Origin: Candidatus Didemnitutus sp.
GTDB taxonomy: Bacteria; Verrucomicrobiota; Verrucomicrobiia; Opitutales; Opitutaceae
NCBI GenBank assembly: GCA_023701285.1
Contig: JAMPXH010000016.1
Coordinates: forward strand, 1 to 49,888
DNA length: 49,888 bases
Direction: 5' to 3'
Made by a program: the position numbers and the translations under genes. The notes beneath the pieces were generated by a model. The model did no database searches and was not told where the DNA came from. It worked only from the letters and a program-made list of their open reading frames with translations. Below, one piece after another: positions 406 through 16,206 of this stretch (positions are counted from its first letter, which is position 1; each line of letters starts with the position of its first letter).

Positions 406-1287
406 TCATTTTGCCGGCGGCCGTTGGCGGAGCTCTCGCGTGGAGCCGTCGAGGGATCGCCAGCTGCGTTCCAGTTCGCCGCGCAAGACGATGGCGTCGG
501 GCCAGGCCGGCGGCAGGCCGGTGATGTTGTAGCCGGCTCCGGCGGGGCGCATGGGGCCCATTTCCGGGCAGGCGAAGAGGGTGCGCGCCGCGTTCTGCGC
601 TCCGCCGCGCCAGAGGCTCATCACCGCTTTTGCGAACTCGAGATACGAGAGGGTTTCGGGCGTCAGCCGCCCGCGGTGAGTGACCGGCACCTGGCAGTGG
701 TGGCCGTTGAACGGACGGAAGTGAATTTGCTCGGCGTGCTGGATCAGCGCCGGATGCGTCAGCAAGCGCGGGCCATACTCAGGCGGCGTCAGGTGTTTCA
801 CGACGGCCAGGTGCGAGAAATCGAAATTAAATTTCAGCAGGCGTCCCGTGGCTTTTTCATAGCGCTCGGCGATTTCGTAGGTCTTCTCCGGCGTCTCGGT
901 GCAGCGGTTGCGATGGACTTCCAACGACAGGATCACGCCGCCGAGGCGTTCCGCGGCGCGTTCCATCCTGATCCACTGCTGCACGGCGATTTTCGGCGGC
1001 GTGTCGTGCCGGCCGAGCTGAACGTTGATGTGTCGCGCACCGCCTTCCTTTTGCGCACGAATGAGGTCGGTGGCGTCGCTCGTGCCATCCGTTTCGATCA
1101 TCCCGAGCAGATGGGTCAGGCCGTATTTCCCCGCCCACCGGCGATGTTCGGGCGTGAGGGTGGCGGTGATCCCGTTAAACCCGGCGCGAGCGGCCGCGGC
1201 GATTTTACGACGCAAGGTCCATTCGCGAGCGACGGAGGGGTGGTAAACCATCGACCACAGGCCGGCGATGGTGAGCAGCTGAGGCAT
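406..1287 (-). CDS. Sugar phosphate isomerase/epimerase-like TIM-barrel protein
   Basis: This is a 293-residue protein beginning MPQLLTIAGLWSMVYHPS, which fits the first strand of a xylose-isomerase-like TIM barrel. Further barrel signatures are LEVHRN, FNFDFSH and QIHFRPFNGHH, spaced like the metal-binding strands of that superfamily. Members isomerise, epimerise or oxidise-assist small sugars and inositols; the exact substrate is unknown. A TTG at 1344 that would overlap the upstream stop (1338-1340) is an alternative start adding 19 residues; the ATG at 1287 was preferred because the barrel begins there. It sits directly behind a PhyH-type oxygenase, a neighbour pair that suggests a shared substrate. 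Confidence 0.75.
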   Translation of the reverse strand: MPQLLTIAGLWSMVYHPSVAREWTLRRKIAAAARAGFNGITATLTPEHRRWAGKYGLTHLLGMIETDGTSDATDLIRAQKEGGARHINVQLGRHDTPPKIAVQQWIRMERAAERLGGVILSLEVHRNRCTETPEKTYEIAERYEKATGRLLKFNFDFSHLAVVKHLTPPEYGPRLLTHPALIQHAEQIHFRPFNGHHCQVPVTHRGRLTPETLSYLEFAKAVMSLWRGGAQNAARTLFACPEMGPMRPAGAGYNITGLPPAWPDAIVLRGELERSWRSLDGSTRELRQRPPAK

Positions 1288-1337
1288 GCGATGCAGGCGG
1301 AAGCGCACATTCACGAGCGCCGCTCCCGCGTTTCCGG

Positions 1338-2285
1338 TTAGCAAGTGACGTTCTTCCCTTCGCTGCCGAAGACCGCGAGGCGGAGTTCATCGGCGACGCC
1401 CTGGGCCGAATGGGGAACGTAATGGAACTGCAGCGCCCAGCGGTTTTCGTTGGTGCGGTTGGTCGGCGTGCCGTGCGGCAGCTTGGCGTCGAAGAGCATG
1501 ATGTCGCCGGCTTCCATCGGGAGCGCCATCTGCCGGCAGGCCATGATCTCGGTGTCGCAGATCTGCCAGTCGCGGCGCTTGAAGTGGATGCGCGGCCCGA
1601 GTTTGTGGCCGCCGGCGAGGACGAACATGCAGCCGTTCTCGGGATTCACGCTGCCGAGGGCGATCCAGACACCGACAATCCGCGTGCCGACGGGAAAGTT
1701 GAAATAAGCGTGATCCTGGTGCCACGGCTTCTCGCGGCCGCCCGCGGGTTTGATCATCGCCATATCCTGAAAAAGCCGGGCGGGCTCGCGCGCGAGCCGC
1801 TCGACCAAGGCGAGCAATTCCGGTTTCAGCGCAGCGGCCGCCAGCGGCGGATGATCCGGGACGAAGCCCATGAACTTGCGCACGAGGCGCGCCCGCACCT
1901 GGCGATCGATGTCCGGCAACCGGTTGGTTTCGGCGCCCAGCGCGAGACTGGCCGAGTGACCTTCGGCGGCGGACTTGCGCGAATCGGCGAGCTGCTGCGA
2001 AAGGTGGTCGCGGATCGAGCCCTCGTAATAGATCTCCGTGCAGACGGGATCGTCCGCCAGGGTCATCCGCTCGAGCTCCTTCTTCGCCGCCTCCACTTCC
2101 GCGGGAGTGAGACCGCCGCGGACGACCAGGAAGCCGCGCTCGTCGTAGGTCGCGAGGTCACGCGGGGTGATGCCGGCAAATCCTTCGACGTAGTCCGTCG
2201 TATCCTGCGCGGAGTAGAGCTGGGGATGATGAGGTTCGATTTTCGATTCGAGCACGACGCGGATGGCAGCGGTGGAGGTAGGCAT
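1338..2285 (-). CDS. Phytanoyl-CoA dioxygenase (PhyH) family protein
   Basis: This 315-residue protein is a member of the Fe(II)/2-oxoglutarate oxygenase family. The iron ligands of the HxD...H triad are visible as H189 and D191 in HQDH and H271 in LPHGTP, and R282 (ENRW) is placed to bind 2-oxoglutarate. A complete facial triad argues for an active oxygenase. Family members hydroxylate very varied small molecules, so the substrate is not predicted. The start at 2285 follows a 102-bp spacer that contains a strong hairpin just behind the SUMF1-sialidase gene, so expression may be partly uncoupled from the upstream genes. The TIM-barrel gene follows closely. Confidence 0.85.
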   Translation of the reverse strand: MPTSTAAIRVVLESKIEPHHPQLYSAQDTTDYVEGFAGITPRDLATYDERGFLVVRGGLTPAEVEAAKKELERMTLADDPVCTEIYYEGSIRDHLSQQLADSRKSAAEGHSASLALGAETNRLPDIDRQVRARLVRKFMGFVPDHPPLAAAALKPELLALVERLAREPARLFQDMAMIKPAGGREKPWHQDHAYFNFPVGTRIVGVWIALGSVNPENGCMFVLAGGHKLGPRIHFKRRDWQICDTEIMACRQMALPMEAGDIMLFDAKLPHGTPTNRTNENRWALQFHYVPHSAQGVADELRLAVFGSEGKNVTC

Positions 2286-2355
2286 GCTGATTGGGGTTGA
2301 CGGTTACGTGGGGAAAATTTTGCGACGCAGGGAGCGGCAGTGCCGGCGAAGCGGA

Positions 2356-2389
2356 GATCGGTGGGGATTGCTCCGCGATCCCACCGATC
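2356..2389 (-). other. Intercistronic hairpin between SUMF1-sialidase and PhyH genes
   Basis: GATCGGTGGG at 2356-2365 pairs perfectly with CCCACCGATC at 2380-2389, a 10-bp stem overlapping the stop codon of the upstream gene. No U-tract follows on the minus strand, so it is not a classical terminator. A role in mRNA end protection or in tuning the distal operon is possible. Confidence 0.5.
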
Positions 2390-4427
2390 AGCCGGGCGGC
2401 ATGGTGCGACGTTCGATCCAGGCGAGGTTGAAGCGGTAATGGAGCGCGCTCGTCAGCAGGTTGATGACGCCGTTGCGCTGCTGGCAGGCGGCGAGGTAGC
2501 CCTTCGGCTCGGCTTGAAACGGCCCGAGTGTGAACTTGCCCGTCCACGCGCCGCCATCCAACTCACGCGGCTCGCCTTCATCCGTCACGAGCCGGCGCAC
2601 GGGCCAGGTTTCGCCTTCATCGTAGGAGAGCGCGACGAAGAGGCCGCGGCCAGTCCGCTCGCGCCCCTGGCGGTCCTTGAGCGGCATGCCCGGAGAGAAG
2701 CTCGCGAGCAGCAGCGGCCCTTCGCGCAAGCGGATCAGCGCGAGTTGCTGGCCCTGCGAAACGCGCGGCAATCCGCTCGGCGAGTAGGTCCAGGTTTTCC
2801 CGCCATCACTCGAAACACTGCGCGGCATCTGGCCGTTGATGGCGTCGCCGCGGCCGAGCGCGAGCAACCGGCCATCGGTTAGCTCGACGACGCTCGCGTG
2901 AATTCCCGCGATCCACGCGCCGCTCTCTCCGGCGGCGAAGCGCGGTGCCGGCTGGCCGGCGCCGGGGTCGAACCAGCTTTCCCCGTCATCACGGCTCAGC
3001 CAGATCGCCGTGCCGCCGTTGCCGCTGGGCACCGCGTCGGTGCAGACGACGAGCGTGCCGTCGCGCAGACGGAGCACCGAGCCGGTGGGCTGGTTCCGCG
3101 CGCCGTGCTCGGGATTGACGAACGTGGCAGGCGACCAGGTCGTGCCGTTGTCGGTCGACGTGCGCATCGTCAGGGCAAGATTGCCCCAAGTCCCCGCGAC
3201 CGAGAGACCGTTGAAATGATACAATGTCCGCGCGCCGTCCCACCAGATCGCGCCGGCGTGGGCGTTGCGATCGGGCGGGCTCCAGAACGACGCCGAGGCG
3301 GGTTCCCACTCTGTCGCGCCGCACCGGAAGCGGCTCGAGACGTAGTGCAGCTCTCGCCCCTGCTCGAGCCGGCACGTATACCAGATGGCGAGCAAGTCCC
3401 CGTTCGGGGTCTCCGTGACGCTGGCGTCATGGTTGTGGGGAAACCACGGGCCCTTTTCTCCCGGTGCGAGACGGACAAAGCGGATCGGGCCGGAAAAATA
3501 CGGACGCGCGGGGTCCGGGCCGTCCGCGACGTCCGTTGGCGGCTCGCTTGAAGCTTCCGTCGCCGAGGGCGGCACCGATGCGAGCGTCGCCGCGGCGCTT
3601 TCCAGCTTCGGACCGGCGAGCACGCGAAACCCGATGAGCCAGCTGCGGTCGGCGGGCAGCGTGCCGCTGCGGTTGGCGCTGCGAAGGTAGCGTGTTTCCG
3701 TGGAATGACTGCCGCCGCGCGTGACGCGGAAATCTCCGGCTGGCGCGCCGACGGGATCGAGCGTTTCGTCCGCCTGATAAGGTCCATGCCAATCCGCGCA
3801 CCATTCCTCGACGTTGCCGTGCATGTCGTGCAGTCCCCAGGCGTTCGCGGGGAAGCGACCAACCAGGAGGGGCGCCACGTGCGCGGGACCGCCGGCACTC
3901 GGCTCGCCGGCCTTGCGCAAGGGATTCGGCGAGGGCCACCAGTCCGACACCTGGTGATTTTGCTGAGCCTCGGGAAAATCGTCGCCGGTGTTGAACTCGG
4001 TCGCGGTGCCCGCGCGCGCGGCATATTCCCATTCGGCTTCGGTCGGCAGCCGGTAGTGCCGGCCTTCACGCGCGCTGAGCCACTCGCAGAAGGCGACGGC
4101 GTCGTGCCAGCTGACGAAGACCGCCGGTTCGTCGTCGCGCGTGGAGAAACCGAGTTTCCCGCGCAGCGAGCGATGCGCGGGATCGCACTGCTCGTATTGC
4201 GCGGTGGTGACCTCGGTGGTCGAGAGATGAAACGACCGGCTGATCCGCACGCGTCGCACCGGAGTCTCGTCGCGATCACCGGCCGTGCTGCCCATGTTGA
4301 ATTCGCCCGCCGGAACCTCGGCGAACCTTTGGCCGATCGAATTGGTGAAACCGGCGTTCGCCACACTGGCGCCGGGCGCGGCGAGGCCGGCGCCCAGCGC
4401 GAACAGCAGCGGACGGACGAGCTTCAC
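2388..4427 (-). CDS. SUMF1/FGE-like domain fused to sialidase-type BNR propeller
   Basis: This is a 679-residue secreted protein. Residues 1-25 are a signal peptide ending near ANA. Residues 30-275 are a formylglycine-generating-enzyme/SUMF1-type domain (FNMGS, EVTTAQY, RLPTEAEWEYAARAG, GLHDMHGNVEEWCADW, RVTRGGS). Residues 310-670 are a six-bladed sialidase-like propeller with four Asp-boxes: STDNGTTW (424-431), SRDDGESW (478-485), SSDGGKTW (539-546) and SYDEGETW (601-608). After RGGS (237-240), where true FGEs carry the catalytic cysteines, the sequence HSTETRYLRSANRS has none, so sulfatase activation is unlikely and the domain is probably a binding or structural module. It lies 18 bp behind the TonB receptor gene. 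The propeller probably cleaves or binds an exported glycan; activity is not proven by sequence. Confidence 0.85.
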   Translation of the reverse strand: MKLVRPLLFALGAGLAAPGASVANAGFTNSIGQRFAEVPAGEFNMGSTAGDRDETPVRRVRISRSFHLSTTEVTTAQYEQCDPAHRSLRGKLGFSTRDDEPAVFVSWHDAVAFCEWLSAREGRHYRLPTEAEWEYAARAGTATEFNTGDDFPEAQQNHQVSDWWPSPNPLRKAGEPSAGGPAHVAPLLVGRFPANAWGLHDMHGNVEEWCADWHGPYQADETLDPVGAPAGDFRVTRGGSHSTETRYLRSANRSGTLPADRSWLIGFRVLAGPKLESAAATLASVPPSATEASSEPPTDVADGPDPARPYFSGPIRFVRLAPGEKGPWFPHNHDASVTETPNGDLLAIWYTCRLEQGRELHYVSSRFRCGATEWEPASASFWSPPDRNAHAGAIWWDGARTLYHFNGLSVAGTWGNLALTMRTSTDNGTTWSPATFVNPEHGARNQPTGSVLRLRDGTLVVCTDAVPSGNGGTAIWLSRDDGESWFDPGAGQPAPRFAAGESGAWIAGIHASVVELTDGRLLALGRGDAINGQMPRSVSSDGGKTWTYSPSGLPRVSQGQQLALIRLREGPLLLASFSPGMPLKDRQGRERTGRGLFVALSYDEGETWPVRRLVTDEGEPRELDGGAWTGKFTLGPFQAEPKGYLAACQQRNGVINLLTSALHYRFNLAWIERRTMPPG

Positions 4428-4445
4428 GTCAGAAACGGTCAGGCG

Positions 4446-7400
4446 TTAGAAGCGGCCCGTGAATCCGGCGGAGATGCGCGTGCCGTTGCGCTCGTAGGTC
4501 ACGACTTCGTTGCGGTTGATGACCCAGGTGCCGGGCGACCAATCGAAGACGTTGTTGGCGTCGAAGAAGAACGTGAAGCGGCGCGTGATTCGGAACTGTA
4601 GGTTCAGGTCGAGCGTCTTGTCCTCGGTCGTGTAGGTCTTCTGGAGCGGGTTCGTGCTGAACGTCGAGAGGTGGCCTTTGTTGTAGTTGTAGAAGGCACG
4701 GACCTGCAACCTGCCGCGCTGGTAGGTGACGCCGGCATTGGCCGTCACGGGTTTGAAGCCGGGTAATTCGTTTTGCTCGTTGGCATATGTCCCCGTGGTG
4801 TCGAGGTGGGTGATGTTTCCCATCACGGTGAAGCCGCGCCAGAAGCCGGGCAGGAACGAAAGCGACTGCGCGTAATTGAACTCCACTCCTTTGACCTCCG
4901 CCTCGCTCAGGTTCTGCGTGGTGATGAGATCATAACCTTCGTAGAGCCCGCCGAAGCCGTTATCCGGCCCGACGCCCACCTCGCTGCGCAGCGAGGCAAT
5001 GTAGCCCTCGATGTTTTTTTGGAAGAAATTCACGGCGACAAGGCCGATGCGCTTGAAGTAATACTCGGCGCCGATCTCGAAGTTGTCCGCATACATCGGA
5101 CGAAGATCGATGTTGTTCGCACGCACCGAGCCGGGCGCAGGGCTGCCGGGGATTTCGGAAGTGCCGATGCGCACGCTGGTGGTCGGCACCTGGTCACGGA
5201 TGCCCGGTCGGCCCATGCTCTTTGTCGCGCTGGCGCGGAACACCAGATTCTTGATCGGCGTGTAGCGGAAATGAATTCCCGGGAAATAGTCGGTGAAATG
5301 CGTATCCTTGGTCAGGAAATCAAGGACCGGGGTGGCGTTAACCTGGCGCGTGCCGGTGCCGGTGATGCCGGTGTGCTCCATGCGCACACCGCCCAGGACG
5401 TCGAGTTTACCGATGCTGGCATTCGCCATGACATAGGCGGAGGTTACGGACTCCGTGAGCGACGCCTCCGGCTTGAAAACATCGCTGGCGGCCTGGACGA
5501 AATGCGAGGGATTGGCATCGAAGTATCTGGATACCGCGCCGGCATTCAACGTATCGAAGGCCGGGTAGAACCCGTTGAACATCGCGTAGCCGGGCCCTTC
5601 GTTACGAAACTGCGTGATGTTATCATCGGCCGTGCCCACGGCATTGTCCGCGCCGCGGAAGTTGTAGGTCCAGGTATTTTCCTTGATGCCATAATCCTTC
5701 TCTCGAAACGCGGCGCCGGCCCGGACGTAGGAGACGGGGCCGAGGTTGCTGATTTCGCGATGCCAGTCGACGCGGACCTCATCCACCTGATCGCGCACGT
5801 CCTGCGGGATGGCGATCCACTGCGAGGCCGTGCCGAGGTTGTTGAAGCGGCTAAGGTCGCTGCCATAGAACATATTCGGCCCGTAGGTTTGCTGGATTGC
5901 CGGCATGTTGCGGTCGGCCGAGGTGTCGAATGACACTCCCTTGCCGCGCCCCCAGGAGGCGATGTATTGACCGAGCCGGTCCTCGGATTCTGCGCGGTTA
6001 TGGCTCGCATTGAAATTGAGCCAGCCATCATCGAGTTTCCAGTCCGCACTGGCCCCGACCTTATACATGTAGTTCTCCTTTCGATCGATCCAGGCGCTGT
6101 TCTGCAACGTGGCGTCGACCAGCTCCTGATAGTCAGCTGAAAAGCCGGGAGCGAGCGAGGCCGTCTGGCCGGCCGTGTTGCGCGCCGTGGCGCCCCCTTC
6201 GATCGCGACACGGCTGACAACGTTGTAATCCACCAGCCTGATCGGTCCGGAGATGCGGTAATCGTTCCGATCCATGTCGAATGTCGTGGAGGTGTAGATC
6301 GCGTCGAAGCGGAGGCTGAGCCGATCATTAACCTTGTGCTCGAGCTTGAAGTTCGTGCCGAAGCGGTCGCGCGTGAAAACGTCGTCGAGCAGGCGCAGTC
6401 GGCCATTGACGAGAACACCGCTGCCGTCGGGCGCAGCTACAAGCGAGTTCTGCAGGCGGTCGCGGGTATTGGTCGAACTGGAGAAGCTGGCGGTGAATGT
6501 GACGCCCCAGTCGCGATTGGCGCCAAGCGTGTCGAGATACGTGAGCGCAGCCGTCGGCGTCAGCGCGGTATCGCCGCGGTAGGTGTTGTAGTTGAAGCCA
6601 GCGCGATACGTTATGCGCCGGCCCTGCACGGCGAAGGCGGATTTGGTGACGAGCTCGACGTTGCCGCCGAGCGAGTCGGCTGGCATGTTGGGTGTCGGCG
6701 CTTTGGTGAGTTTCAGCGTTTCGACCAGTTCGGCGGGCATATTATCGATTGGAAAAGCGCGGTCGCCCACCGGGCTGGAGCCGGCGTTGGCGGCGGCGAG
6801 TTGCGAGCCGTCCATCGACACGGTGCTGAGCGCCTGCGCCATGCCGCGCACGCCGAAGCCCTGCACGTCGCCATTGCTCTTCGATTGGTCGATGCCCGGG
6901 AGGCGCTGGAGAAAGTTACCGATATTGCCGTCGGCGACCGATCCGTATGCGTCCATCGCGACAATGTTCACGACGTTCGGCGCGTTTTTCTGCGCCGTGA
7001 CCGCGGCCGCCTCCCCCTCGCGCACCCCCACGACGGTGAACTGCTCAAGTTGATAGACCTGCGCGGTCAGGGCAATGACAACGCCATCGCTTCCCGCGGC
7101 CAATTCCACAGGCAAGGTTTTGGCATCGAGCCCGACGTAGTTGACGCGCACGGAATACTTGCCCGCCGGGAGTCCGGCGAAACGGAACGATCCATCGCGC
7201 GCGGTCACCGTCTGTTGCGGCGGATCGACGAGCTCGACGGTTGCCCCTTCAAGGTAGTTGCCCGTCTCGGCGTTCAAAACGCGCCCGACAAGGGTCAGCG
7301 TCTCCGCTTGCATTGACGGGACAAGCAGCACCGATGAGAGGAGGCTCCACAGCAGAAGCGCTCGCGGCAGGAATAACCGATGGTTGAGCTGACACAGGAA

Positions 7401-7478
7401 ACGCCGGATGACTCCAGCGGGCGTGGGAACGGTGGGGTCGATCATATCAGGTGGGGTGTTGAGGGTGCGTGATACCAT
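4446..7478 (-). CDS. TonB-dependent receptor with N-terminal carboxypeptidase-regulatory-like domain
   Basis: This 1010-residue outer-membrane receptor has a long N-terminal region with a hydrophobic export signal at about residues 38-58. A CarboxypepD_reg-like beta-sandwich follows (LVGRVLNAETGNYLEGATVEL to YVGLDAKTLPVELAAG). Then come a plug (QLEQFTVVGVREGEAAA, GNIGNFLQRLPGIDQSKSNGDVQGFGVRGM) and a 22-stranded barrel that ends in aromatic GFTGRF, typical of barrel C-termini. It should import a ligand too large for porins, in keeping with the sialidase-like proteins of the operon. The ATG at 7478 was used; an ATG at 7445 (MIDPTVPTP) is also possible. It lies 22 bp behind the aldolase gene and 18 bp before the SUMF1-sialidase gene. 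Confidence 0.93.
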   Translation of the reverse strand: MVSRTLNTPPDMIDPTVPTPAGVIRRFLCQLNHRLFLPRALLLWSLLSSVLLVPSMQAETLTLVGRVLNAETGNYLEGATVELVDPPQQTVTARDGSFRFAGLPAGKYSVRVNYVGLDAKTLPVELAAGSDGVVIALTAQVYQLEQFTVVGVREGEAAAVTAQKNAPNVVNIVAMDAYGSVADGNIGNFLQRLPGIDQSKSNGDVQGFGVRGMAQALSTVSMDGSQLAAANAGSSPVGDRAFPIDNMPAELVETLKLTKAPTPNMPADSLGGNVELVTKSAFAVQGRRITYRAGFNYNTYRGDTALTPTAALTYLDTLGANRDWGVTFTASFSSSTNTRDRLQNSLVAAPDGSGVLVNGRLRLLDDVFTRDRFGTNFKLEHKVNDRLSLRFDAIYTSTTFDMDRNDYRISGPIRLVDYNVVSRVAIEGGATARNTAGQTASLAPGFSADYQELVDATLQNSAWIDRKENYMYKVGASADWKLDDGWLNFNASHNRAESEDRLGQYIASWGRGKGVSFDTSADRNMPAIQQTYGPNMFYGSDLSRFNNLGTASQWIAIPQDVRDQVDEVRVDWHREISNLGPVSYVRAGAAFREKDYGIKENTWTYNFRGADNAVGTADDNITQFRNEGPGYAMFNGFYPAFDTLNAGAVSRYFDANPSHFVQAASDVFKPEASLTESVTSAYVMANASIGKLDVLGGVRMEHTGITGTGTRQVNATPVLDFLTKDTHFTDYFPGIHFRYTPIKNLVFRASATKSMGRPGIRDQVPTTSVRIGTSEIPGSPAPGSVRANNIDLRPMYADNFEIGAEYYFKRIGLVAVNFFQKNIEGYIASLRSEVGVGPDNGFGGLYEGYDLITTQNLSEAEVKGVEFNYAQSLSFLPGFWRGFTVMGNITHLDTTGTYANEQNELPGFKPVTANAGVTYQRGRLQVRAFYNYNKGHLSTFSTNPLQKTYTTEDKTLDLNLQFRITRRFTFFFDANNVFDWSPGTWVINRNEVVTYERNGTRISAGFTGRF

Positions 7479-7500
7479 GGGGACGTTGAGAGGTGACGGC

Positions 7501-8485: not shown

Positions 8486-10057
8486 CTACTCGAGCGGCGT
8501 CTCGGCCTGGTCCCACACGGTGAGGTTGGATAGCGCTTGGGTCGGCGCGGGACGCACCAGCGAAGCAAGGTAGGCGACGCCGAAGGACAGGACGTTCCCG
8601 ACAATCGCCACGTAGTAAGGGAAGAGTCCGAAGCGCAGGGCGTCCGGCGTGAGACCGAGATCGTTCGCTTTCACCCACAACACGAAGAGGAGAGAGGCCG
8701 CGAGACCGGTCCACGCGCCCGCGAGCGACACCCGCCGCGTGAGCATGCCGGCCAGAAAAATTCCGGGCACGCCCGAGGAGATGAGCGCCACGAGGGTCAG
8801 GATCAAATCGGTCAGCGTGACGGTCTCCGCCGTGTAGATCAGCAGCGCGCCGCCGATCATCAGCAGCGAAACAGCCAGCGCGGCACCCTTCGCCACGGCG
8901 AGATAATGCCCGTCGCTCCGCGCCGGACCGATCTTTTTGTAGAGATCGTTCACGATCACCATGCTGGCGCTGTTTATGCAGGCGCTGAGCGTCGACATGG
9001 CCGCCGCCAACGCGCCCGCGATCACGAGTCCCCTCAGCCCTGTCGGCAGGAATTCGGTGATGAAATACGGCACGATCGACTCGGCCTTGCGGGTGCCGGC
9101 GGCAATCTCGCCCGCCACGGGGTCCGGGAAATGGAGAAAATAGACGAACAGCGCCGTGCCGAGAAACTGGAACAGCGCCCACACCGGCACGCAGCCGAAG
9201 CCCATCACGTAGACGGAACGACGCGCCTCGGCGGCCGTAGTCGCCACGCACCAGCGCTGCACCGTCGATTGCTCGAACTGGCCGCCGAGATATTGCACGA
9301 AGCCGGCGATGAGCAGCATGAGCACGGTCTTTTCACTGAGCGAGAATCCCGTGCCCACGCGTTCGAGTGACGCCGTCGCCGTGTTGTAGTCGTGCGCCAC
9401 TGAAAGTTTGTGATGCGCGTTGGCGTCGGAAAAAATCGTCGCGAGCCCTGCCGGCAGCGCATCGACGATGTAGACGATGCAAACCACAACGCCCAGCAGC
9501 AGCACGATGGTCTGCACAACGTCCGTCCAAACGACGGCCTTGATGCCGCCTTTCACCGTGTAGACTGCCGTGATGCCCACGGTGACCAGCAGGCAGGTGG
9601 CGAAGCCCCAACCGGTGATGCCTTCGAGCAAGAGCGAGAGCAGATAGGCGATCACGCTGGTGCGAAGCACCTGCGTCAGCAGAAAGGCAATCGCCGCGTA
9701 GGTGGAGATCGAACCGCCAAAACGGAGCGCAAGGTATTCATAGGCGGACGTGATCGTGCCGCGACGGAAGAACGGCACAAAATACCGTGCCGCGATCAAG
9801 GCCACGATCGGCAGCGCGAGGTTCGGGAGGAAGCGCAACCAGGCCGTCTTGAAGGAATCGGCGGGGATGCCAAGAAACGTGACCGAGCTGATGATCGAGC
9901 CGATGAGACTGATGCCAATCGCCCAGCCGGAGAAAGATTTGTTCGCGAGGAAATACTGACCGGTGGACTGGGAGCGTCGGCCGACCATGTAGCCGACCGC
10001 GAGCGTGGCGGCGAAGTAGATCAGGATGACCGCGAAATCGAGAAACGAGATCTTCAT
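8486..10057 (-). CDS. Sodium:solute symporter (SSS family)
   Basis: This 523-residue polytopic membrane protein has about 13 hydrophobic segments, beginning FLDFAVILIYFAATLAVGYMVG. SSS landmarks include GRRSQSTGQYFLANKS, the TM1-TM2 region GISLIGSIISSVTFLGIPAD, and the later AAAMSTLSACINSASMVIVNDLY, where the small and hydroxyl residues of the Na+ site of LeuT-fold SSS proteins lie. It would import the monomer released by the periplasmic enzymes. Its start codon overlaps the stop of the nucleoside hydrolase gene as ATGA, which implies translational coupling. The aldolase gene follows 31 bp later. SSS members close to aldolases and sialidases often carry sialic acids or related sugar acids, but no substrate can be fixed here. 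Confidence 0.92.
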   Translation of the reverse strand: MKISFLDFAVILIYFAATLAVGYMVGRRSQSTGQYFLANKSFSGWAIGISLIGSIISSVTFLGIPADSFKTAWLRFLPNLALPIVALIAARYFVPFFRRGTITSAYEYLALRFGGSISTYAAIAFLLTQVLRTSVIAYLLSLLLEGITGWGFATCLLVTVGITAVYTVKGGIKAVVWTDVVQTIVLLLGVVVCIVYIVDALPAGLATIFSDANAHHKLSVAHDYNTATASLERVGTGFSLSEKTVLMLLIAGFVQYLGGQFEQSTVQRWCVATTAAEARRSVYVMGFGCVPVWALFQFLGTALFVYFLHFPDPVAGEIAAGTRKAESIVPYFITEFLPTGLRGLVIAGALAAAMSTLSACINSASMVIVNDLYKKIGPARSDGHYLAVAKGAALAVSLLMIGGALLIYTAETVTLTDLILTLVALISSGVPGIFLAGMLTRRVSLAGAWTGLAASLLFVLWVKANDLGLTPDALRFGLFPYYVAIVGNVLSFGVAYLASLVRPAPTQALSNLTVWDQAETPLE

Positions 10058-10962
10058 GGCTGAGGAGTGCCGTGTGACGCGCCCGGGACACGGGCCGGGC
10101 CCTTGAGTTTGCGATACAGATCCTGGAAAATGGCGTCGCGCTTCACCTCCATCACGACGTCAATCTCGCCCGTTGTGCCGCGTTGCCAGCGCTTGTCGTC
10201 GGTCAAACGCGGACGCGACGTGCGCTCAATCCCCGCCCAGCCGGGATTGATCAAAACCGCCACCGTCAAGACGTCCCACAGGGGTTTCGATTGGAAGCCC
10301 TTTTGGGTCAGATACAGGTCAAAGCGCTGCCGGAGAAAATCGCCGAGGCCCTGATCGGGAGGCAGATGCTCGCGGAGATCGGCGGCCGTCGTGATGAGGT
10401 GCTCCGCCACATTTTTGCACGGCACGTGGAGCATCGGGACGTCGGATTCGAAGAGCACCTGCGCCGCCGGCACGTCCTGGCGCAGGTTGAACTCGTCGGC
10501 CGTCGGCCAATCATACGGATGCCCGCCGAGCCAGACCATGCGCACGCGTTGCGCGATGCGGGGTTCGAGCAAAAGCGCAGAGGCAAGATTGGTTGCCGCC
10601 GCGATGCCGACCACATGCAGCGGCCCGGGTTGTGAGTCGTCCATCGCTCGCGAGATCAGATCCGTGACGGCCTCGCTTTCGACCGGCCTGCGCCCGGCCC
10701 CGAGCCAACGCGTGGCACCGCGAAACACCCGCCCGCCCAGATCGGTGCCGACGAGTTCGAGCACATGGTGGATTTCACGGTAACTTTTCTCCATGCCGTC
10801 CGCGGGTCCGCTGGAGCGCGCGTTGTGAAACGGCGCGGCGTAACAGGCCTCCAGCTTCACTTGGGCCGGGGACAGGCACGCGTAGGCCAGGGTGAATTGA
10901 TCATCCACCTCATTGTAGGTGTCGGTATCCAGCACGACACGGAGTGGAGGACTTGCGTTCAT
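10054..10962 (-). CDS. Nucleoside hydrolase-fold protein
   Basis: This 302-residue protein has the calcium-binding Asp cluster of nucleoside hydrolases at its N-terminus: VVLDTDTYNEVDDQF, with D12, D14, D20 and D21. A later WDVLTVAVL segment corresponds to the fourth metal-ligand Asp. The family splits the N-glycosidic bond of ribonucleosides to base and ribose, and related proteins act on other N-ribosides. A PfkB/ribokinase in the same operon could phosphorylate released ribose. No signal peptide is seen, so it is probably cytoplasmic and would act on imported material. The start was placed at the ATG at 10962 just before the first strand; the longer in-frame extension would run into the PEP-CTERM gene. 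Its stop overlaps the symporter start. Confidence 0.85.
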   Translation of the reverse strand: MNASPPLRVVLDTDTYNEVDDQFTLAYACLSPAQVKLEACYAAPFHNARSSGPADGMEKSYREIHHVLELVGTDLGGRVFRGATRWLGAGRRPVESEAVTDLISRAMDDSQPGPLHVVGIAAATNLASALLLEPRIAQRVRMVWLGGHPYDWPTADEFNLRQDVPAAQVLFESDVPMLHVPCKNVAEHLITTAADLREHLPPDQGLGDFLRQRFDLYLTQKGFQSKPLWDVLTVAVLINPGWAGIERTSRPRLTDDKRWQRGTTGEIDVVMEVKRDAIFQDLYRKLKGPARVPGASHGTPQP

Positions 10963-10987
10963 GGAGCGCGAAGGGATGGGGGCGGAA

Positions 10988-11016: not shown

Positions 11017-11038
11017 GAGGGAGATGACGCAGAGGGAC

Positions 11039-11938
11039 TCAGGCCGCAGAGCGGTTTTGGCGATGCCGGCGGAGCGCAACCAAGCCAAGCGCGGCGAGTG
11101 CCATCAGCATGGCGTAGGTCGAAGGCTCGGGGATCGGCACCGCGCCCATTTCGATGCGCAGGTTCGAGATGGAAAGCGGGGAGTTCTGGCTGTTGTTCTG
11201 GAACGCGATCTGGTTGAAATAGGTTTCCATGTCCGCCATGCCGGTCGTCGCGTTCGGTGTGTCGATGTAGGAAATCGCGACGGGACTGCTGAGTCCGTCG
11301 CCCGTGATCGTCATCGAAACCTCGAGTTGGTTTTCGTTCAGCAGCGCGAGCGTGAAGTCGAGGTGATAGAGGCTCAGGGTCGAGAAGACCGAAGTGCCGC
11401 TCGACTGCGGACCGCCAACCATGCCGAAGCCGACAGTATTGATGAGTACTGACGGGTCGCGTTCGTTCAGGCTGATGTAGTTGCCACCGGCGCTCGGGTT
11501 GAAATTCAGCATCGCCATGTAGCCGGTGGAGGTGCTGCCACCGGTGCCAACGGTGTTCGGGTCATCGTGAGCGTTGTAGATACCGATGCGAAAGGTGTTC
11601 ACGAGCGCGGTGCTCATCGAGACATCGAAGTTGAGCGAAACGTATTGACCGGGAGTGAGTGCAGCCGGGCTGTTGCGCCACTGGGCAGCGGCGATTTGCC
11701 CCGTAGCGGTCGCCGTGGATGTCAGTGTCAAAGCGCCACCGCCGACGCTGACATTCGCGCCGTTTGTGCGACGGATGGCCCAATCGAGGGACGTGTAGGC
11801 GCCGGAGCCGTCTTGCGTCGCCGTGGTGTAGTTGCCGTCGGCGAAGGTTTCGTGGACGAGCAGGGTTGGGTTCGCGAACGATGCGAGCGGGAGGAATCCC
11901 GCGAGGAGCAACCAAGTGCGGAGGGGGGTTATTTTCAT
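11039..11938 (-). CDS. PEP-CTERM sorting-domain protein
   Basis: This is a 299-residue exported protein. Residues 1-22 are a signal peptide (MKITPLRTWLLLAGFLPLASFA). The middle is a beta-rich Ser/Thr/Gly region with a FADGN start shared with the truncated protein at the window's left end. The C-terminus is a textbook PEP-CTERM signal: PEPST, a hydrophobic helix AMLMALAALGLVAL and the basic tail RRHRQNRSAA. Such proteins are processed by an exosortase and usually end up in the envelope or extracellular matrix. No catalytic motif is visible; the fold might be lectin-like, which is inference. It sits 40 bp behind the unknown secreted protein and before a hairpin. Confidence 0.9.
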   Translation of the reverse strand: MKITPLRTWLLLAGFLPLASFANPTLLVHETFADGNYTTATQDGSGAYTSLDWAIRRTNGANVSVGGGALTLTSTATATGQIAAAQWRNSPAALTPGQYVSLNFDVSMSTALVNTFRIGIYNAHDDPNTVGTGGSTSTGYMAMLNFNPSAGGNYISLNERDPSVLINTVGFGMVGGPQSSGTSVFSTLSLYHLDFTLALLNENQLEVSMTITGDGLSSPVAISYIDTPNATTGMADMETYFNQIAFQNNSQNSPLSISNLRIEMGAVPIPEPSTYAMLMALAALGLVALRRHRQNRSAA

Positions 11939-11977
11939 GGGCAGTAGGTTTGGGGTGAGGGAGATTTCTGTGCCTGC

Positions 11978-12766
11978 TCAGCGGATGGGCGCGGATGGTT
12001 GGTTTTCGATGACCGCCACGCCGATCGCGCCAACGTCGAGATACTCTTCGGCCGTCGTGGCGAAATTGCCGCGCACGAGCATCTGCGCCACGCGGACCAC
12101 ACGCACCGGGCTGCTCTTGCCTTCGCCGAGCAATTCGAGGGCGCCATCTGCATGCACGCGGTAAAGGGCATAGCGCTGCTGCGCGGGCTGGTATTCGAGG
12201 GCGAAGTTCATCGGCTCCGACTGATCGGGATAGCCGATGGTGATGGGCCGCCCGCTCGTCGCGCCTTCGTTCGCACGCAAGGCCTCGTAGGTGACATCGA
12301 CCTGTCCGCCGGCGCTACGGAGACGAAATTGCACGACCCCGGAGAAGCGGTCGGCGCGCTGTCCAAAGCCGAAATACACGGCCTTCGATTCCGTCGGGTC
12401 GAAGGACCAACTGTTCAACTGCACGAAGAGCCAGACGGCGGCGGCGCGCGTGAGATCGGGCAGCGGAAGCATGCTGGCCGGATCCTGGTCGCCGCGGGGA
12501 GCACGCACGCGCAGGCCACGGTCCGCAACGAAGGTCGTGCCCGGAATATCATGTGTCCACCGCAGCGCGACCGGCTGCGATCGCGCCTGCGTGAGCCCCG
12601 GACCACTTGCGGTCGAGAAATCGAATGTGCCCACGACGCGCAGGCCGCGCGCCTGCAACGCTTGGAGGGATTCGGGCAGCGCACTCTCCTGCGCGTGCGC
12701 AACGATTGCCGCGCAACCAATTAACGCGCCCAGGATCCAGCGGAAGGAGGTTATCAGCGTTTTCAT
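11978..12766 (-). CDS. Secreted protein of unknown function, possibly lectin-like beta-sandwich
   Basis: This 262-residue protein has a signal peptide (MKTLITSFRWILGALIGCAAIVAHA) and a mature domain rich in beta strands and aromatic residues (AVWLFVQLNSWSF, KAVYFGFGQRADRFSGVVQFRL, MNFALEYQPAQQRYALYRV). The pattern resembles concanavalin A or LamG-type domains, but no family could be recognised with certainty. Its ATG at 12766 overlaps the stop of the BNR gene as ATGA, so it is translationally coupled to a presumptive glycan hydrolase. A carbohydrate-binding partner role is plausible but unproven. No C-terminal sorting signal is present. Confidence 0.7.
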   Translation of the reverse strand: MKTLITSFRWILGALIGCAAIVAHAQESALPESLQALQARGLRVVGTFDFSTASGPGLTQARSQPVALRWTHDIPGTTFVADRGLRVRAPRGDQDPASMLPLPDLTRAAAVWLFVQLNSWSFDPTESKAVYFGFGQRADRFSGVVQFRLRSAGGQVDVTYEALRANEGATSGRPITIGYPDQSEPMNFALEYQPAQQRYALYRVHADGALELLGEGKSSPVRVVRVAQMLVRGNFATTAEEYLDVGAIGVAVIENQPSAPIR

Positions 12767-13869
12767 GGCTTCCAAAGAGTCGCTTCGATGTGCGGCTGCG
12801 GGCGCTCTGCAGTGGTGTAGTAGTAGACGATCACCAGGGCGCCGTCGGGCCGCGCCACGGCGCGGGTGTAGCCGATGTCCCATGTCAGCGCATCATCACG
12901 GAGAATGCGTTCGGGGCCCCAGGTTTTCCCGGCATCCTGACTGATTTTGGCGCGCAATCCCATGCGCTCGCCGCGCCAGCCGTAGATCGCCGCGATCTTG
13001 TCACCGCCGAGCGCCACCAGCGCAGCGGGGTTGCTCGATCCCCGTTCGAGCGTGCCCAGCTTGGTCCAGCTCCGTCCCCGATCATGCGAAGCGTGGATCT
13101 CCGTCCATTTCCGGCGGTTCACCCGGCAACGCACGGCGGCGACAAAGTGATCGGCCGACAGCTGCACGGCGGCGGGCATCACGGAATATGCGGGCAGTTG
13201 ATCCTCCGGCAGCCCCTCACCGGGATCTTCGCCGATGAAGGAGAGAAACTGCCAGCTCATGCCGCCATCGACGGTTTCCATCACCGACGATCGGCCGCGT
13301 TCCGTCTTCGCCGTGTTCGGTCGTGAAACGGTCGTGAGGAAGAGCAGCGCCGACTTTTCGCCCGTCACAAGATAACTGGTGCGGGCAAGCACGTGCGCAT
13401 CCGGGTGCGACGGCAATGCCCATGGGCCGGACCACGTCTGGCCACGATCAACGCTACTGTAGAACGAGGCTTGGCGCGACTTGAAGACGAGCCCGGGATG
13501 CGCAAAAGGCAACGGCTGCTCGAGCGGCTTGATCGCGTCGCGCTTCACCGCAGTGTAGTGCAGCACGTCGGCGTGATCCTCAGTCGTCCACGTGAGCCCA
13601 CCGTCGCGGCTGCGCGAGAAGCCGTAGCGCAACTTGCCTTCGACGGAGTGGCCTTTCTCCTCCGCCTTGTAGCGACCGAGATTATAGCCGACGAGAATCT
13701 CATCGCCCCAAGACCAGATGCCTTCGTTGGCCGGCCAGCCGGAAAATTCCAGCGGATCGTGCCGGACGACGAAGTGCCGGACGTCTTCCGCACCGCTGAC
13801 AATGGCTGCGGTCATCAGGCCGAGAACGGCGCCGAGGAGCGTGCGAAAACGTTTGGTGAGGGCGCACAT
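12763..13869 (-). CDS. Sialidase-like BNR/Asp-box protein (second copy)
   Basis: This is a 368-residue secreted protein with a signal peptide (LLGAVLGLMTAAIVSGA). Asp-box-like repeats are visible as SRDGGLTW, SVDRGQTW, TVDGGMSW, SHDRGRSW and SQDAGKTW, predicting a six-bladed sialidase fold. It is a paralogue of the 14861-16108 protein: both share HDPLEFSGWPANEG / HDTKEFAGWPANEG near the N-terminus and GYTRAV..PDG..YYYTT near the C-terminus. The catalytic residues of GH33 could not be assigned with confidence, so it may hydrolyse a glycosidic bond other than sialic acid. The start lies 2 bp after the ribokinase stop, and its own stop overlaps the next gene by 4 bp. Confidence 0.85.
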   Translation of the reverse strand: MCALTKRFRTLLGAVLGLMTAAIVSGAEDVRHFVVRHDPLEFSGWPANEGIWSWGDEILVGYNLGRYKAEEKGHSVEGKLRYGFSRSRDGGLTWTTEDHADVLHYTAVKRDAIKPLEQPLPFAHPGLVFKSRQASFYSSVDRGQTWSGPWALPSHPDAHVLARTSYLVTGEKSALLFLTTVSRPNTAKTERGRSSVMETVDGGMSWQFLSFIGEDPGEGLPEDQLPAYSVMPAAVQLSADHFVAAVRCRVNRRKWTEIHASHDRGRSWTKLGTLERGSSNPAALVALGGDKIAAIYGWRGERMGLRAKISQDAGKTWGPERILRDDALTWDIGYTRAVARPDGALVIVYYYTTAERPQPHIEATLWKP

Positions 13870-13871
13870 GA

Positions 13872-14861
13872 TCAGGCCACCTCGGTTTCGACGGGGACGC
13901 GTGGCTCTGCGGCGGCCAGCACTTCGGCCCGCAAGGGCATCGCAGTTTGAGCGCCCGGCTTCAGTGTCGAAAGCGCTGCCGCGACGTTCGCGCGCCAGAT
14001 CACGTCCCGCCAATCGAACGCGCGCGGCACGAGCTGCGCGGCCAGAACGCCGGCAAAGGTATCGCCGGCCCCGACCGTATCGAGCGGCGTGACTGCTCGC
14101 GTCGGCACCGAGAGGCACTTCTCGGGCGCGATGGACAACGTAGAGTCAGCCCCGCGGGTTACGACGATCTGGCCGAGGTTTCTCTCGGCAAGGAAAAGCC
14201 CGCGGGCGCCGCACTCCATGGAGGCGAGGGCGCGCGCTGACCGCTGAAACAGTTGCGTGCATTCGTGCTCGTTGATCACGAGCACATCGACCCGGCAATC
14301 GCGCCACGGAAACGCGGCGCCAACCGGCGAGGCGTTCAGCACCGTGCGCACGTTGAACTCCCGCGCGAGCCGCAGGGCGGCGAGCACGCTGGGCAGAGGC
14401 GTTTCCAGCGAAAGCAGCAGCACATCGGAGGTGCGCAGCACACTGGGGAGAATCATCCTGACGCTTTCCTCATCGATTGCGGTGTTCGCCCCCGGATTCA
14501 CCACGATCATGTTCTCAGCTCGTGCGTCGACGTAGACATGCGCACTACCGGAGGGATGGCGGTGGGCTTGGAGGATATGCCCGATAGCGACATTTTCGCG
14601 CTGCAGGTGCGCGAGGTAACGCTGGCCGACATCGTCCGTGCCAAGAGCACCGACGAGCGAAACGCAGGCACCGAAGCGGGCCGCGGCGACGGCTTGGTTG
14701 GCGCCCTTGCCGCCCCAGTGGTGCGTCACGTTCTGTGCGAGCACGGTGTGGCCAGGCCGGGGCAACTCCGCTAGACGATAGACGAGGTCCGCGTTGAGCG
14801 ATCCCAACACGGTGACGCGGGCGACGGCGTCGGAGGCAGTGAGAGTCGCGGGCGAGGACAT
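13872..14861 (-). CDS. PfkB-family carbohydrate kinase, ribokinase type
   Basis: This 329-residue kinase carries both PfkB signatures: GGKGANQAVAAARFG starting at 50, and DTVGAGDTFAG at 261-271, whose D267 is the predicted catalytic base. The NEHE motif at 197-200 coordinates Mg-phosphate in ribokinases. GSLNADLVYRL near the N-terminus also fits ribokinases. It would phosphorylate a sugar inside the cell, with ribose the default guess because a nucleoside hydrolase is in the same operon. Its ATG at 14861 shares one base with the TAA stop of the upstream BNR gene (TAATG), a strong sign of coupled translation. A longer in-frame start inside the upstream gene was rejected. Confidence 0.88.
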   Translation of the reverse strand: MSSPATLTASDAVARVTVLGSLNADLVYRLAELPRPGHTVLAQNVTHHWGGKGANQAVAAARFGACVSLVGALGTDDVGQRYLAHLQRENVAIGHILQAHRHPSGSAHVYVDARAENMIVVNPGANTAIDEESVRMILPSVLRTSDVLLLSLETPLPSVLAALRLAREFNVRTVLNASPVGAAFPWRDCRVDVLVINEHECTQLFQRSARALASMECGARGLFLAERNLGQIVVTRGADSTLSIAPEKCLSVPTRAVTPLDTVGAGDTFAGVLAAQLVPRAFDWRDVIWRANVAAALSTLKPGAQTAMPLRAEVLAAAEPRVPVETEVA

Positions 14862-16108
14862 TAGTTTTTCGTTTCGCCGGTCGTCGGACGCCATAGGGTC
14901 GCGGCGATAAAGTTCTGTGGGACCGCCTCGGTCGTGTAGTAATAGGCTGCGATGATCGTGCCGTCTGCGCGGCGCACCGCGCGGGTGTAGCCGAGATCCC
15001 ATTTCCGGGCATCAGAGCGCAACATGATTTCCTTCGACCAGGTGCGGCCGCCGTCTTCGCTTAGCTTGGCGGAAACGCCCAGCGGTGTTTTGCCGCCCCG
15101 GCGGTTGCCGTAGATCGCGGCGAGTTTTTCGCCGCCGAGGGCGACGAGCGCCGCGGGATTGCTCGAGCCGTTTTCGAGGCGGGAAAGCTTCTTCCAGGTG
15201 CGACAGCCGTCGGCGGAAGCGTAGATGTCGGTCCATTTCATCCGCCCCACGCGCTGACGCAGCGAGACGACATAGCGATCGCCGATCTGCACGGCGGACG
15301 GCATGATGGAGAATACCTCTTCGCCTCCATCGACGATTTCTCCGCGCATTGTCCGCTCGCGTTGATAGTCGCCGGCAATGTCATCGCCGATCCAAGAAAC
15401 GAACTGGAACGTTTTTCCCCCGTCATCCGTCCGAAACACGCAGGAACGGGTGTATTTCACCTTGCCAACAACGACGCGGCTGTTGCCGAAGATCAGGCAG
15501 GTATTCGGCCCGGTCACGAGGTAGTTCGTGCGGCTTTCAGGTATGCCACCGAAATCCGGCAGCAGGTAAGGCCCACTCCACTCCCGACCGCGATTGAAAG
15601 AGACGTAGAACGTCCCGCCGCGGATCTTCATCGCGAAATCCGGATGGGAAAAATCGAAGTTGCCCGGCGAGGGCTGCGGCGCCGCGGCGGTCGAGGATTC
15701 CTGGCGGTAACGCGCGGCATCGCCGATGTATTCCGGCGGTGCGATTTCAGGATGCTCCTCCGCGAGCCAAGTGCGGCCACCGTCCAAGCTGCGCGCAAAG
15801 GTGATCCGCTTAGGACTGCTACGATCGATGCTGTGGTCCTTGTCGACTTCGGTGTAGCGAGCCACCTCGAAGCCCACGAGAAGCTCGTCACCCCAGGCCC
15901 ACATGCCTTCATTGGCCGGCCAGCCAGCGAATTCCTTGGTATCGTGGTAGACGACCCGATGCTCGATGGCGGGAAGAACCTGCCGTGCAATGCAACTCGG
16001 CGCCGCCGCCACCAGGATACCGAAAGGAAGGGCGGCCAGCAGCCGGTGCGGCAAAGGGCGGCCGGCAACGCGGACAACCCGTGAGAGGAGATCGGAAACG
16101 AGGGACAT
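14861..16108 (-). CDS. Sialidase-like BNR/Asp-box protein (first gene of operon)
   Basis: This 415-residue protein has an N-terminal hydrophobic export segment (LLAALPFGILVAAAPSCIA), with a cysteine that could also allow lipidation, although the box is not canonical. Asp-boxes are SLDGGRTW, RTDDGGKTF, SADGCRTW and SEDGGRTW, indicating a six-bladed propeller. It is paralogous to the protein at 12763-13869. The expected role is exo-acting cleavage of a terminal sugar from a glycan; whether that is a sialic acid, another ulosonic acid or something else is open. It is the promoter-proximal gene of the LacI-controlled operon, and the ATG at 16108 lies about 55 bp from the predicted -10 region. Confidence 0.87.
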   Translation of the reverse strand: MSLVSDLLSRVVRVAGRPLPHRLLAALPFGILVAAAPSCIARQVLPAIEHRVVYHDTKEFAGWPANEGMWAWGDELLVGFEVARYTEVDKDHSIDRSSPKRITFARSLDGGRTWLAEEHPEIAPPEYIGDAARYRQESSTAAAPQPSPGNFDFSHPDFAMKIRGGTFYVSFNRGREWSGPYLLPDFGGIPESRTNYLVTGPNTCLIFGNSRVVVGKVKYTRSCVFRTDDGGKTFQFVSWIGDDIAGDYQRERTMRGEIVDGGEEVFSIMPSAVQIGDRYVVSLRQRVGRMKWTDIYASADGCRTWKKLSRLENGSSNPAALVALGGEKLAAIYGNRRGGKTPLGVSAKLSEDGGRTWSKEIMLRSDARKWDLGYTRAVRRADGTIIAAYYYTTEAVPQNFIAATLWRPTTGETKN

Positions 16109-16161
16109 GACAGAGCGGAAACTGGGGGTTGGGTGGAACGGGACCCGGGGTGACGGCGCGT

Positions 16162-16190
16162 TTTTTGCGAAAATATTTCCGCAATGTCAA
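16162..16190 (-). promoter_or_regulatory. Predicted promoter of the sialidase-like operon
   Basis: On the minus strand a perfect -35 box TTGACA lies at 16190-16185. With a 17-bp spacer the -10 position would be CAAAAA (16167-16162), a weak match; TATTTT within the spacer is a poorer-spaced alternative. The box is overlapped by one palindrome and the spacer filled by another, the expected layout of a repressed promoter. Confidence 0.5.
16165..16184. promoter_or_regulatory. Second putative LacI-family operator (20-bp imperfect palindrome)
   Basis: TTGCGAAAATATTTCCGCAA is palindromic except for one mismatched pair. It has the same TTGCG/CGCAA outer arms as the neighbouring perfect palindrome but an AT-rich centre instead of ACGT. 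It lies between the predicted -35 and -10 of the operon promoter. Confidence 0.5.
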
Positions 16191-16206
16191 CGCAAACGTT
16201 TGCGTT
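16189..16206. promoter_or_regulatory. Putative LacI-family operator (18-bp perfect palindrome)
   Basis: AACGCAAACGTTTGCGTT is a perfect palindrome with the central CG step and half-site spacing typical of LacI/PurR-family operators. It overlaps the TTGACA -35 of the minus-strand operon and lies 69 bp before the lacI-type start codon, so it could control both directions. Confidence 0.75.

Follow-up and report, generated by a model that had tools for sequence, protein, structure and literature searches.

The 49,888-nucleotide contig JAMPXH010000016.1 of Candidatus Didemnitutus sp. (family Opitutaceae), analyzed here in its entirety and referred to as the window, belongs to a genome of 4.02 Mb in 220 contigs that is 95% complete. 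A run of 12 minus-strand genes, extending from 16108 down to 406, lies opposite a plus-strand LacI gene and encodes sialidase-fold BNR proteins together with a pyruvate aldolase, a symporter, a nucleoside hydrolase (NH), a kinase and a TonB-dependent receptor. The features of this locus are as follows.

16275..17279, plus strand: LacI-family regulator (PF00356, PF13377)
16189..16206: candidate LacI operator, a perfect 18-bp palindrome, AACGCAAACGTTTGCGTT
16165..16184: second, imperfect palindrome in the same intergenic region
14861..16108, minus strand: BNR1, sialidase-fold protein (PF13088, 37.6 bits; orthologue clade 100/99)
13872..14861, minus strand: PfkB kinase, ribokinase-like (PF00294; TIGR02152, 242.1 bits, under the cut-off of 299.65)
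12763..13869, minus strand: BNR2, sialidase-fold protein (PF13088, 51.9 bits; orthologue clade 100/99)
11978..12766, minus strand: "LamG-like" protein (a working label only), probably exported, with no Pfam or NCBIfam match
11039..11938, minus strand: PEP-CTERM protein (PF07589, 25.8 bits)
10054..10962, minus strand: NH with a Trp-Asp motif (LWD 228), group II-like (PF01156, 79.6 bits)
8486..10057, minus strand: SSS sodium:solute symporter (PF00474, 144.8 bits)
7501..8454, minus strand: DapA/NAL-superfamily pyruvate aldolase (PF00701, 158.6 bits; best solved relative YagE)
4446..7478, minus strand: TonB-dependent receptor with a CarboxypepD_reg domain (PF00593, PF07715, PF13620)
2388..4427, minus strand: FGE-sulfatase domain fused to BNR3 (PF03781 and PF13088)
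1338..2285, minus strand: PhyH-family dioxygenase (PF05721, 116.7 bits; HQD 189)
406..1344, minus strand: weak xylose isomerase-like TIM barrel (PF01261, AP_endonuc_2, 20.7 bits, under the cut-off of 31.1)

A preliminary description of this locus had reported 13 minus-strand genes with mostly small gaps or overlaps. Strand, content and spacing were as described, but only 12 genes were counted, the figure of 13 being reached only by including the plus-strand LacI gene. Neighboring genes were between -7 and 102 nt apart; BNR2 and the LamG-like gene overlap by 4 nt (ATGA), as do NH and SSS, and BNR1 and PfkB share a TAATG overlap. The three sialidase-like proteins of that description were recovered as three BNR domains, the third being the C-terminal half of the FGE fusion, while the name sialidase proved unsuited. 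Catalytic residues ascribed to the aldolase, kinase and PhyH protein were found as YNFP (152) and GLK (178), GAGD (264) and HQD (189), respectively. The TIM-barrel and PhyH genes were both present, the former under its Pfam cut-off, and neither was part of the recurring core described below. These two genes were considered as a conserved pair, and this was rejected: TIM relatives occurred in 138 of 250 family genomes, and a PhyH relative (22% identity) was near one of the five that were fetched, with none near the other four. BNR1 and BNR2 probably carry signal peptides, as judged by eye. As the contig starts at position 1, the operon may extend beyond that point. About 1 kb past the LacI gene lies a transfer-messenger RNA gene (18259-18617, minus strand; tag GTYEEMPLAA).

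The divergent gap between the BNR1 and LacI genes measures 166 nt and holds the perfect palindrome. No second match to the 14-bp core of this candidate operator was found in the genome at ≤1 mismatch, nor was there a near match in the related loci L050, L051, L054 and L058 of the Planctomycetes-Verrucomicrobia-Chlamydiae (PVC) group, where the best sites had 4 to 5 mismatches of 18. Scans for promoters and terminators gave no excess over shuffled sequences. The window LacI protein was 45% and 41% identical to the LacI proteins of two BNR clusters from Balneolota (L236, which is truncated by the contig end, and L242).

An alignment in which BNR1 and BNR2 were joined by two relatives from Opitutaceae was used to scan genome contigs, and 51 loci were detected. 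The family extends over Verrucomicrobiota, Planctomycetota, Lentisphaerota, Balneolota, Bacteroidota, Ignavibacteriota, Acidobacteriota, Chloroflexota, Bacillota and Pseudomonadota, among others. From 60 proteins found, 11 that were short, fused, near-duplicate or doubtful were dropped, giving an alignment of 51 sequences that includes BNR1 and BNR2 of the window. The invariant columns include W45, P46, A47, N48, R163, R247, R299, D331, Y334 and Y350, while E57 and H74 are kept in 50 of the 51. An AlphaFold2 model of BNR2 (mean pLDDT of 91.3) had the Asp-box beta-propeller fold of sialidases, and Asp boxes were found in the sequence. The closest solved fold was 5HX0 (Z of 31.9), followed by sialidases (Z of 26.7 to 28.4) over nearly the whole length; other propeller families were seen only in fold-match lists, where absence excludes nothing.

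In order to place the active site, glycoside hydrolase family 33 (GH33)-type comparators were taken from Verrucomicrobiota proteins picked by their BNR_assoc_N domain, 12 of the 14 being from one genus. The [FY]RIP motif was present in 14/14 comparators, in none of BNR1 to BNR3 and in 0/51 family members within the first 110 residues; some Arg was located in alignment columns 40 to 58 of 7/51 members. A profile-profile comparison (hhalign) against seven comparators, which spans BNR2 residues 63 to 351 and has the RIP region outside it, aligned the two families in register (probability 97.7, E of 1.9e-12). The nucleophile Tyr of the comparators (Y644) corresponded to Y334 in 51/51 BNR proteins, and R550 was aligned to R247. 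We took R550 as the second Arg of the triad (Arg2) because the comparator Glu534-Arg550 spacing of 16 equals that of Glu559-Arg575 in RgNanH, as given in PMC10017367. The catalytic Glu was absent, E534 being replaced by Met231-Pro232 (Met in 50/51, Pro in 48/51), a placement judged from the AQV block after it. The position of R613, taken as Arg3, fell on residue 302, which is Pro in 38/51, and the invariant R299, three residues away, might act as a substitute. An Asp at the position that we assume for the acid/base residue, 12 residues ahead of the first Asp-box Ser, was found in 22/51 proteins, including BNR1 but not BNR2. On the strength of these alignments, BNR1 and BNR2 share the fold and part of the site with GH33 but fail on the defining residues and are not ordinary sialidases.

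BNR1 and BNR2 each fell into their own orthologue clade (support of 100/99) with Opitutaceae and Coraliomargarita members. The same genome also contains a second GWPAN-type BNR pair (L131, G000:C133:34500-46470) in longer frames of 840 and 534 amino acids, the neighbors being a SASA-like esterase, an FG-GAP protein, an IclR-like gene (by eye) and an Amidohydro_2 protein. Six loci of Rhizobium and other Rhizobiales (L084, L086, L090, L092, L095 and L096) have one or two BNR matches and lack the usual partners, and in Devosia (L078) a BNR pair sits amid ABC-transporter genes recognized by eye.

Recurrence of the other window genes, and of several further partner genes, was examined by counting the loci that hold a relative among 67 BNR loci (1044 kb) and 40 other regions (548 kb). 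Some of the search seeds came from the counted loci themselves, and their numbers are given in brackets. The counts for BNR loci and other regions were 9 and 0 for DapA (3 seeds), 10 and 0 for SSS (4 seeds), 11 and 0 for an FAD oxidoreductase (4 seeds), 5 and 0 for NH (2 seeds), 14 and 1 for the TonB receptor (1 seed), 6 and 0 for SASA (2 seeds) and 14 and 4 for sulfatase (3 seeds). BNR3 gave 4 and 1, FGE 2 and 2, and the LamG-like protein 1 and 0, while PEP-CTERM and TIM were found in neither set. For PfkB (2 and 1; 2 seeds), FGGY (2 and 0; 2 seeds) and PhyH (1 and 0; 1 seed), the counts in BNR loci are the seeds themselves, as these were drawn from the counted loci.

Several loci illustrate the shared content. 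Coraliomargarita L051 holds BNR2, the FAD oxidoreductase, SSS, PfkB, BNR1, NH and a SASA esterase, Victivallis vadensis L058 holds the FAD oxidoreductase, two BNR genes, NH and SSS, and Opitutaceae Nm470 L050, on the same contig as L036, holds BNR1, a TonB receptor, an autotransporter-like protein, BNR2 and NH. Relatives of the window SSS at 49 to 52% identity were located in L037, L051, L054 and L055, and a 47% relative of the window TonB receptor adjoins BNR1, BNR2 and NH in L036. A 27% relative of the LamG-like protein follows BNR1 in L055, and one-frame relatives of the FGE-BNR fusion adjoin BNR genes in L143 and L245. When the BNR tree was divided into halves, NH was present in the locus of 6/14 genomes (window included) of one half and 0/23 of the other (Fisher p of 0.0013, uncorrected for kinship, with genomes counted by hand and some loci cut by contig ends). 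There were 76 IU_nuc_hydro matches in 35 genomes with BNR loci, 5 of which were positioned inside those loci. With the BNR model at an E value of 1e-15, 46/250 family genomes passed, in many cases with nothing more than a partial match at the C terminus, and 0/12 other genomes of the genus of the window did so, indicating that the locus is sporadic.

As relatives of several parts recur together in other phyla, the gene set appears to be more than a chance assembly. The comparison of BNR gene neighborhoods proposed in the preliminary description thus identified SSS, the pyruvate aldolase, the FAD oxidoreductase, the TonB receptor and, in PVC genomes, NH as recurring partners. In open-licence papers, among the matches listed, there was no description of this gene module, and a search pairing nucleoside hydrolase with polysaccharide utilization gave no match.

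Large repetitive proteins were also observed near some receptors. The autotransporter-like protein of L050 (4288-8943, plus strand; 1551 amino acids, recognized by eye) is encoded between the TonB receptor and BNR2 genes, and the receptors of L054 and L214 are likewise followed by large repetitive proteins. L214 (G046:C1:1883000-1902000) shares with L037 an NH-SSS-TonB receptor cluster and comes from a genome without a family-level BNR match; its receptor is followed by a 941-amino-acid Laminin_G and FG-GAP protein and a 2046-amino-acid repetitive protein.

The window NH carries a Trp before a conserved Asp (LWD 228), as do most of the aligned NH proteins (13/16, window included). Replacement of an active-site His by Trp defines the group II nucleoside hydrolases (PMC10526354). 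The equation of the two positions is our own reading of an alignment that held no group II sequence. The NH scored 46.3 bits against a UriH cut-off of 450, and the PfkB protein scored 242.1 against a ribokinase cut-off of 299.65. Ribokinase was nevertheless the closest match of the PfkB protein. The NH substrate may be either a nucleoside or an O-ribofuranoside; capsules containing ribose and 3-deoxy-octulosonate (Kdo) exist. Relatives of the window NH in L040 (42%) and L044 (37%) occur near an ADP-ribosylglycohydrolase-like protein and sulfatases (both recognized by eye) and a LacI gene.

The strongest hint as to what the aldolase and kinase may do came from Balneolota. Rhodohalobacter L087 has BNR, DapA, SSS, BNR, FGGY and FucI in this order; the FGGY protein passed the pentulose-kinase cut-off (690.8 versus 408.7) and FucI passed its own (1074.5 versus 775). 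A search of 244 genomes of this Balneolota class detected BNR in 13 at an E value of 1e-30. Full-length BNR, DapA, SSS, FGGY and FucI were present together in L087 and in three of 13 further Balneolota regions (L236, L237 and L242), while L240 has BNR, SSS and DapA, and L244 has BNR and DapA. A palindrome, TGTAAWCGWTTACA, occurred at 21 sites in 7 Balneolota genomes, as against 0 for a reversed control pattern. Fourteen of these sites were in fetched BNR loci (6 of the 11 scanned) and none of the 14 was within a called gene: 7 preceded a BNR gene, 3 preceded TonB receptors (in two loci), 1 preceded DapA, 1 preceded LacI and 2 preceded short open reading frames, one of which heads a gene run to FGGY and FucI. 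The remaining sites comprised 1 at 176 bases before a BNR match in genome G618, 4 on the same contigs as BNR genes at distances of ≤22 kb and 2 elsewhere. This common LacI-type operator indicates that the BNR, aldolase, receptor and pentose enzymes apparently form one regulon in Balneolota. Breakdown of fucose or rhamnose was tried as a common theme and not adopted: FucI was found in four Balneolota loci, always with an FGGY of the pentulose type, and in L054 the FGGY that resembles a rhamnulokinase (labeled by eye) is a lone gene on the opposite strand.

FucI acts on D-arabinose. The products of KDO aldolase are D-arabinose and pyruvate (PMC4412817), and NAL enzymes form KDO from these two compounds at 1 to 1.5% of the rate with N-acetylmannosamine (PMC4016182); a GH33 Kdo hydrolase has been named for rhamnogalacturonan II (RG-II) (PMC11214529). 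As KDO aldolase makes those products, a route from Kdo to pyruvate and D-arabinose, then to D-ribulose and ribulose-5-phosphate, fits the Balneolota gene set. This route would account for the window DapA and, less surely, for PfkB, the Kdo step being carried over from relatives whose aldolases are 26 to 28% identical.

These analyses suggest, as a tentative reading held at somewhat less than even confidence, that the window locus is a catabolic operon under LacI control, directed at an acidic glycan or glycoside that contains a 3-deoxy-ulosonate, with Kdo as the best guess, and with a riboside branch. The TonB receptor would import oligomers; BNR1 and BNR2, both probably exported, would set free a 3-deoxy-ulosonic acid, of which Kdo is the likeliest; the SSS symporter would carry this product into the cell, where the DapA-type aldolase would split it into pyruvate and an aldose (D-arabinose in the case of Kdo). 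The role of the NH-like enzyme would be to release ribose bound in a riboside, and that of the PfkB kinase to phosphorylate the pentose. The preliminary idea of an ulosonic sugar combined with a riboside, or of a two-branch pathway, is retained as the best reading, with the Balneolota relatives pointing to Kdo rather than a sialate as the sugar. A bolder proposal, which we regard as doubtful, is that the BNR proteins of the GWPAN type form a new family of glycosidases or lyases, which use a rebuilt sialidase site to release Kdo or a different 3-deoxy-octulosonate and which anchor an undescribed multi-phylum Kdo pathway with aldolase and pentose kinase, merged in PVC bacteria with a ribofuranosidase branch in which an NH fold acts on a ribose-Kdo glycan. 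Apart from the choice of substrate, the locus is probably a coherent, sporadically distributed catabolic operon of known parts in a combination unmet in the literature searched, with BNR as a candidate new enzyme family.

Several observations weigh against the Kdo reading, beginning with the seeds drawn from the counted loci. Several BNR loci share a genus or genome and were counted more than once, and the 40 control regions, of which 12 are under 8 kb, were chosen in genomes that overlap in part with those of the BNR loci. As the RIP Arg (Arg1) and the Glu are missing and the Arg3 position is Pro in 38/51, hydrolysis of an ulosonic acid by the BNR proteins is not assured. The FucI and FGGY evidence comes from Balneolota, and the only pentose-kinase candidate of the window is a PfkB under the ribokinase cut-off; of the aldolase and pentose-phosphorylating route that accompanies BNR in Balneolota, the window has only DapA and the PfkB kinase in one gene run. 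The window DapA is only 26 to 28% identical to the Balneolota ones, reads GADT where these read GPEE and has YagE as its best solved relative. FucI might equally serve L-fucose. Seven of the 13 further Balneolota regions were without a full-length DapA, two of these (L243 and L246) keeping SSS, and L241 has only an NAL-like DapA; 5 of the 11 scanned loci hold no TGTAAWCGWTTACA site. Some of the contigs in both comparisons are short.

The relationship of DapA to YagE, a probable 2-keto-3-deoxy-galactonate aldolase, raises the alternative that BNR proteins act as lyases or glycosidases on a uronic acid or other sugar and that DapA is a 2-keto-3-deoxygluconate/galactonate-type aldolase at the end of a sugar-acid pathway. 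The conserved His74 (50/51), Tyr334 and Arg163, Arg247 and Arg299 (51/51), with the GH33 Glu lost, would suit a lyase by analogy with such enzymes, and proteins of families that are met in sugar-acid pathways (MR_MLE, Amidohydro_2, HpcH/HpaI and FAA-hydrolase) are encoded in other BNR loci. Each of these genes was, however, present in only 1 to 3 of the 67 BNR loci (HpcH also in 1/40 controls), a Pfam scan of the 12 operon products gave no match to a sugar-acid dehydrogenase or dehydratase family, and the pairing of FucI with a pentulose kinase in the regulon of Balneolota requires a pentose. We consider this alternative rather unlikely. A nucleoside operon enlarged with glycan genes, in which NH and PfkB act on real nucleosides that BNR proteins free, themselves or as their sugars, from a conjugate, would explain the presence of LacI, a ribokinase-like kinase, a transporter and NH in the window, as in a similar Corynebacterium glutamicum operon (PMC3146418 and PMC3350403), as well as the group II-like Trp. 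That explanation appears distinctly unlikely with NH so far below the UriH cut-off and the kinase below that for ribokinase, with NH in just 5/67 BNR loci, with NH relatives also in loci without a GWPAN-type BNR and with no nucleobase enzyme recognized in general family scans of the operon products.

A sialidase fold, an SSS symporter and an NAL-superfamily aldolase would also be expected of an ordinary sialic-acid utilization cluster, for N-acetylneuraminic acid (Neu5Ac) or Kdn, with unusual sequences. NanE (PF04131) was unmatched in the 95%-complete genome, in a search that did not extend to an AGE-type route or to Kdn, and the RIP motif was absent from BNR1 to BNR3 and from the first 110 residues of all 51 family members. 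The window DapA reads GGMVN at 224, in a block where five other BNR-linked aldolases read xGGAN and that of L136 reads PSSGN, while the NAL-type proteins of L037 and L237 read GSTYN. These two loci hold a separate GSTYN-aldolase cluster beside this kind of module: in L037, an RIP-bearing BNR gene and GSTYN aldolase flank the NH-SSS-TonB receptor cluster, and in L237, a GSTYN aldolase and SSS flank the BNR cluster. A Neu5Ac operon was rejected on the absence of NanE, the loss of RIP and the aldolase block. Use of Neu5Ac by the window locus is unlikely, and a disguised sialic-acid cluster in general is highly improbable; the earlier statement that this is not a standard sialate operon stands with regard to NanE and the aldolase block.

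Most Gram-negative outer membranes contain Kdo, as does plant RG-II, and in the open-licence literature, among the matches listed, little was found on the use of Kdo as bacterial food. If the Kdo reading is true, a multi-phylum family now reached only via a generic BNR model would gain a testable function, and proteins of Verrucomicrobiota and Planctomycetota labeled "sialidase" on the basis of BNR repeats would have to be re-examined.

Among known systems, the GH33 sialidases share with BNR2 a propeller that fits over 284 to 311 residues at about 2.8 to 3.6 Å (for the cellular sialidases listed) as well as the nucleophile Tyr and second Arg, but they differ in having the RIP Arg, Glu and Arg3, in the acid/base Asp that only 22/51 BNR proteins show and in the conserved His74 of the latter. 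The nearest solved relative of BNR2, 5HX0 (Dfer_1899 of Dyadobacter fermentans; E of 6.3e-27), is 18% identical in the structural alignment and is a structure of unknown function. The UriR uridine operon of C. glutamicum has the same LacI-type regulator, ribokinase, transporter and nucleoside hydrolase (PMC3146418, PMC3350403), to which the window adds a TonB receptor, an aldolase and three BNR domains, its NH being of the Trp type. The sialate-type clusters of L037 and L237 likewise have an NAL-superfamily aldolase, accompanied in L037 by a BNR protein and in L237 by an SSS symporter, whereas the window lacks the RIP motif and GSTYN block, and its genome lacks a NanE match. SusC/D-type polysaccharide utilization loci differ in their SusD-type protein, none being detected by family scans among the 12 products of the window, whose contig ends at position 1; they resemble the window locus in a TonB receptor with CarboxypepD_reg, probable exported glycan-active proteins, a symporter and a local regulator.

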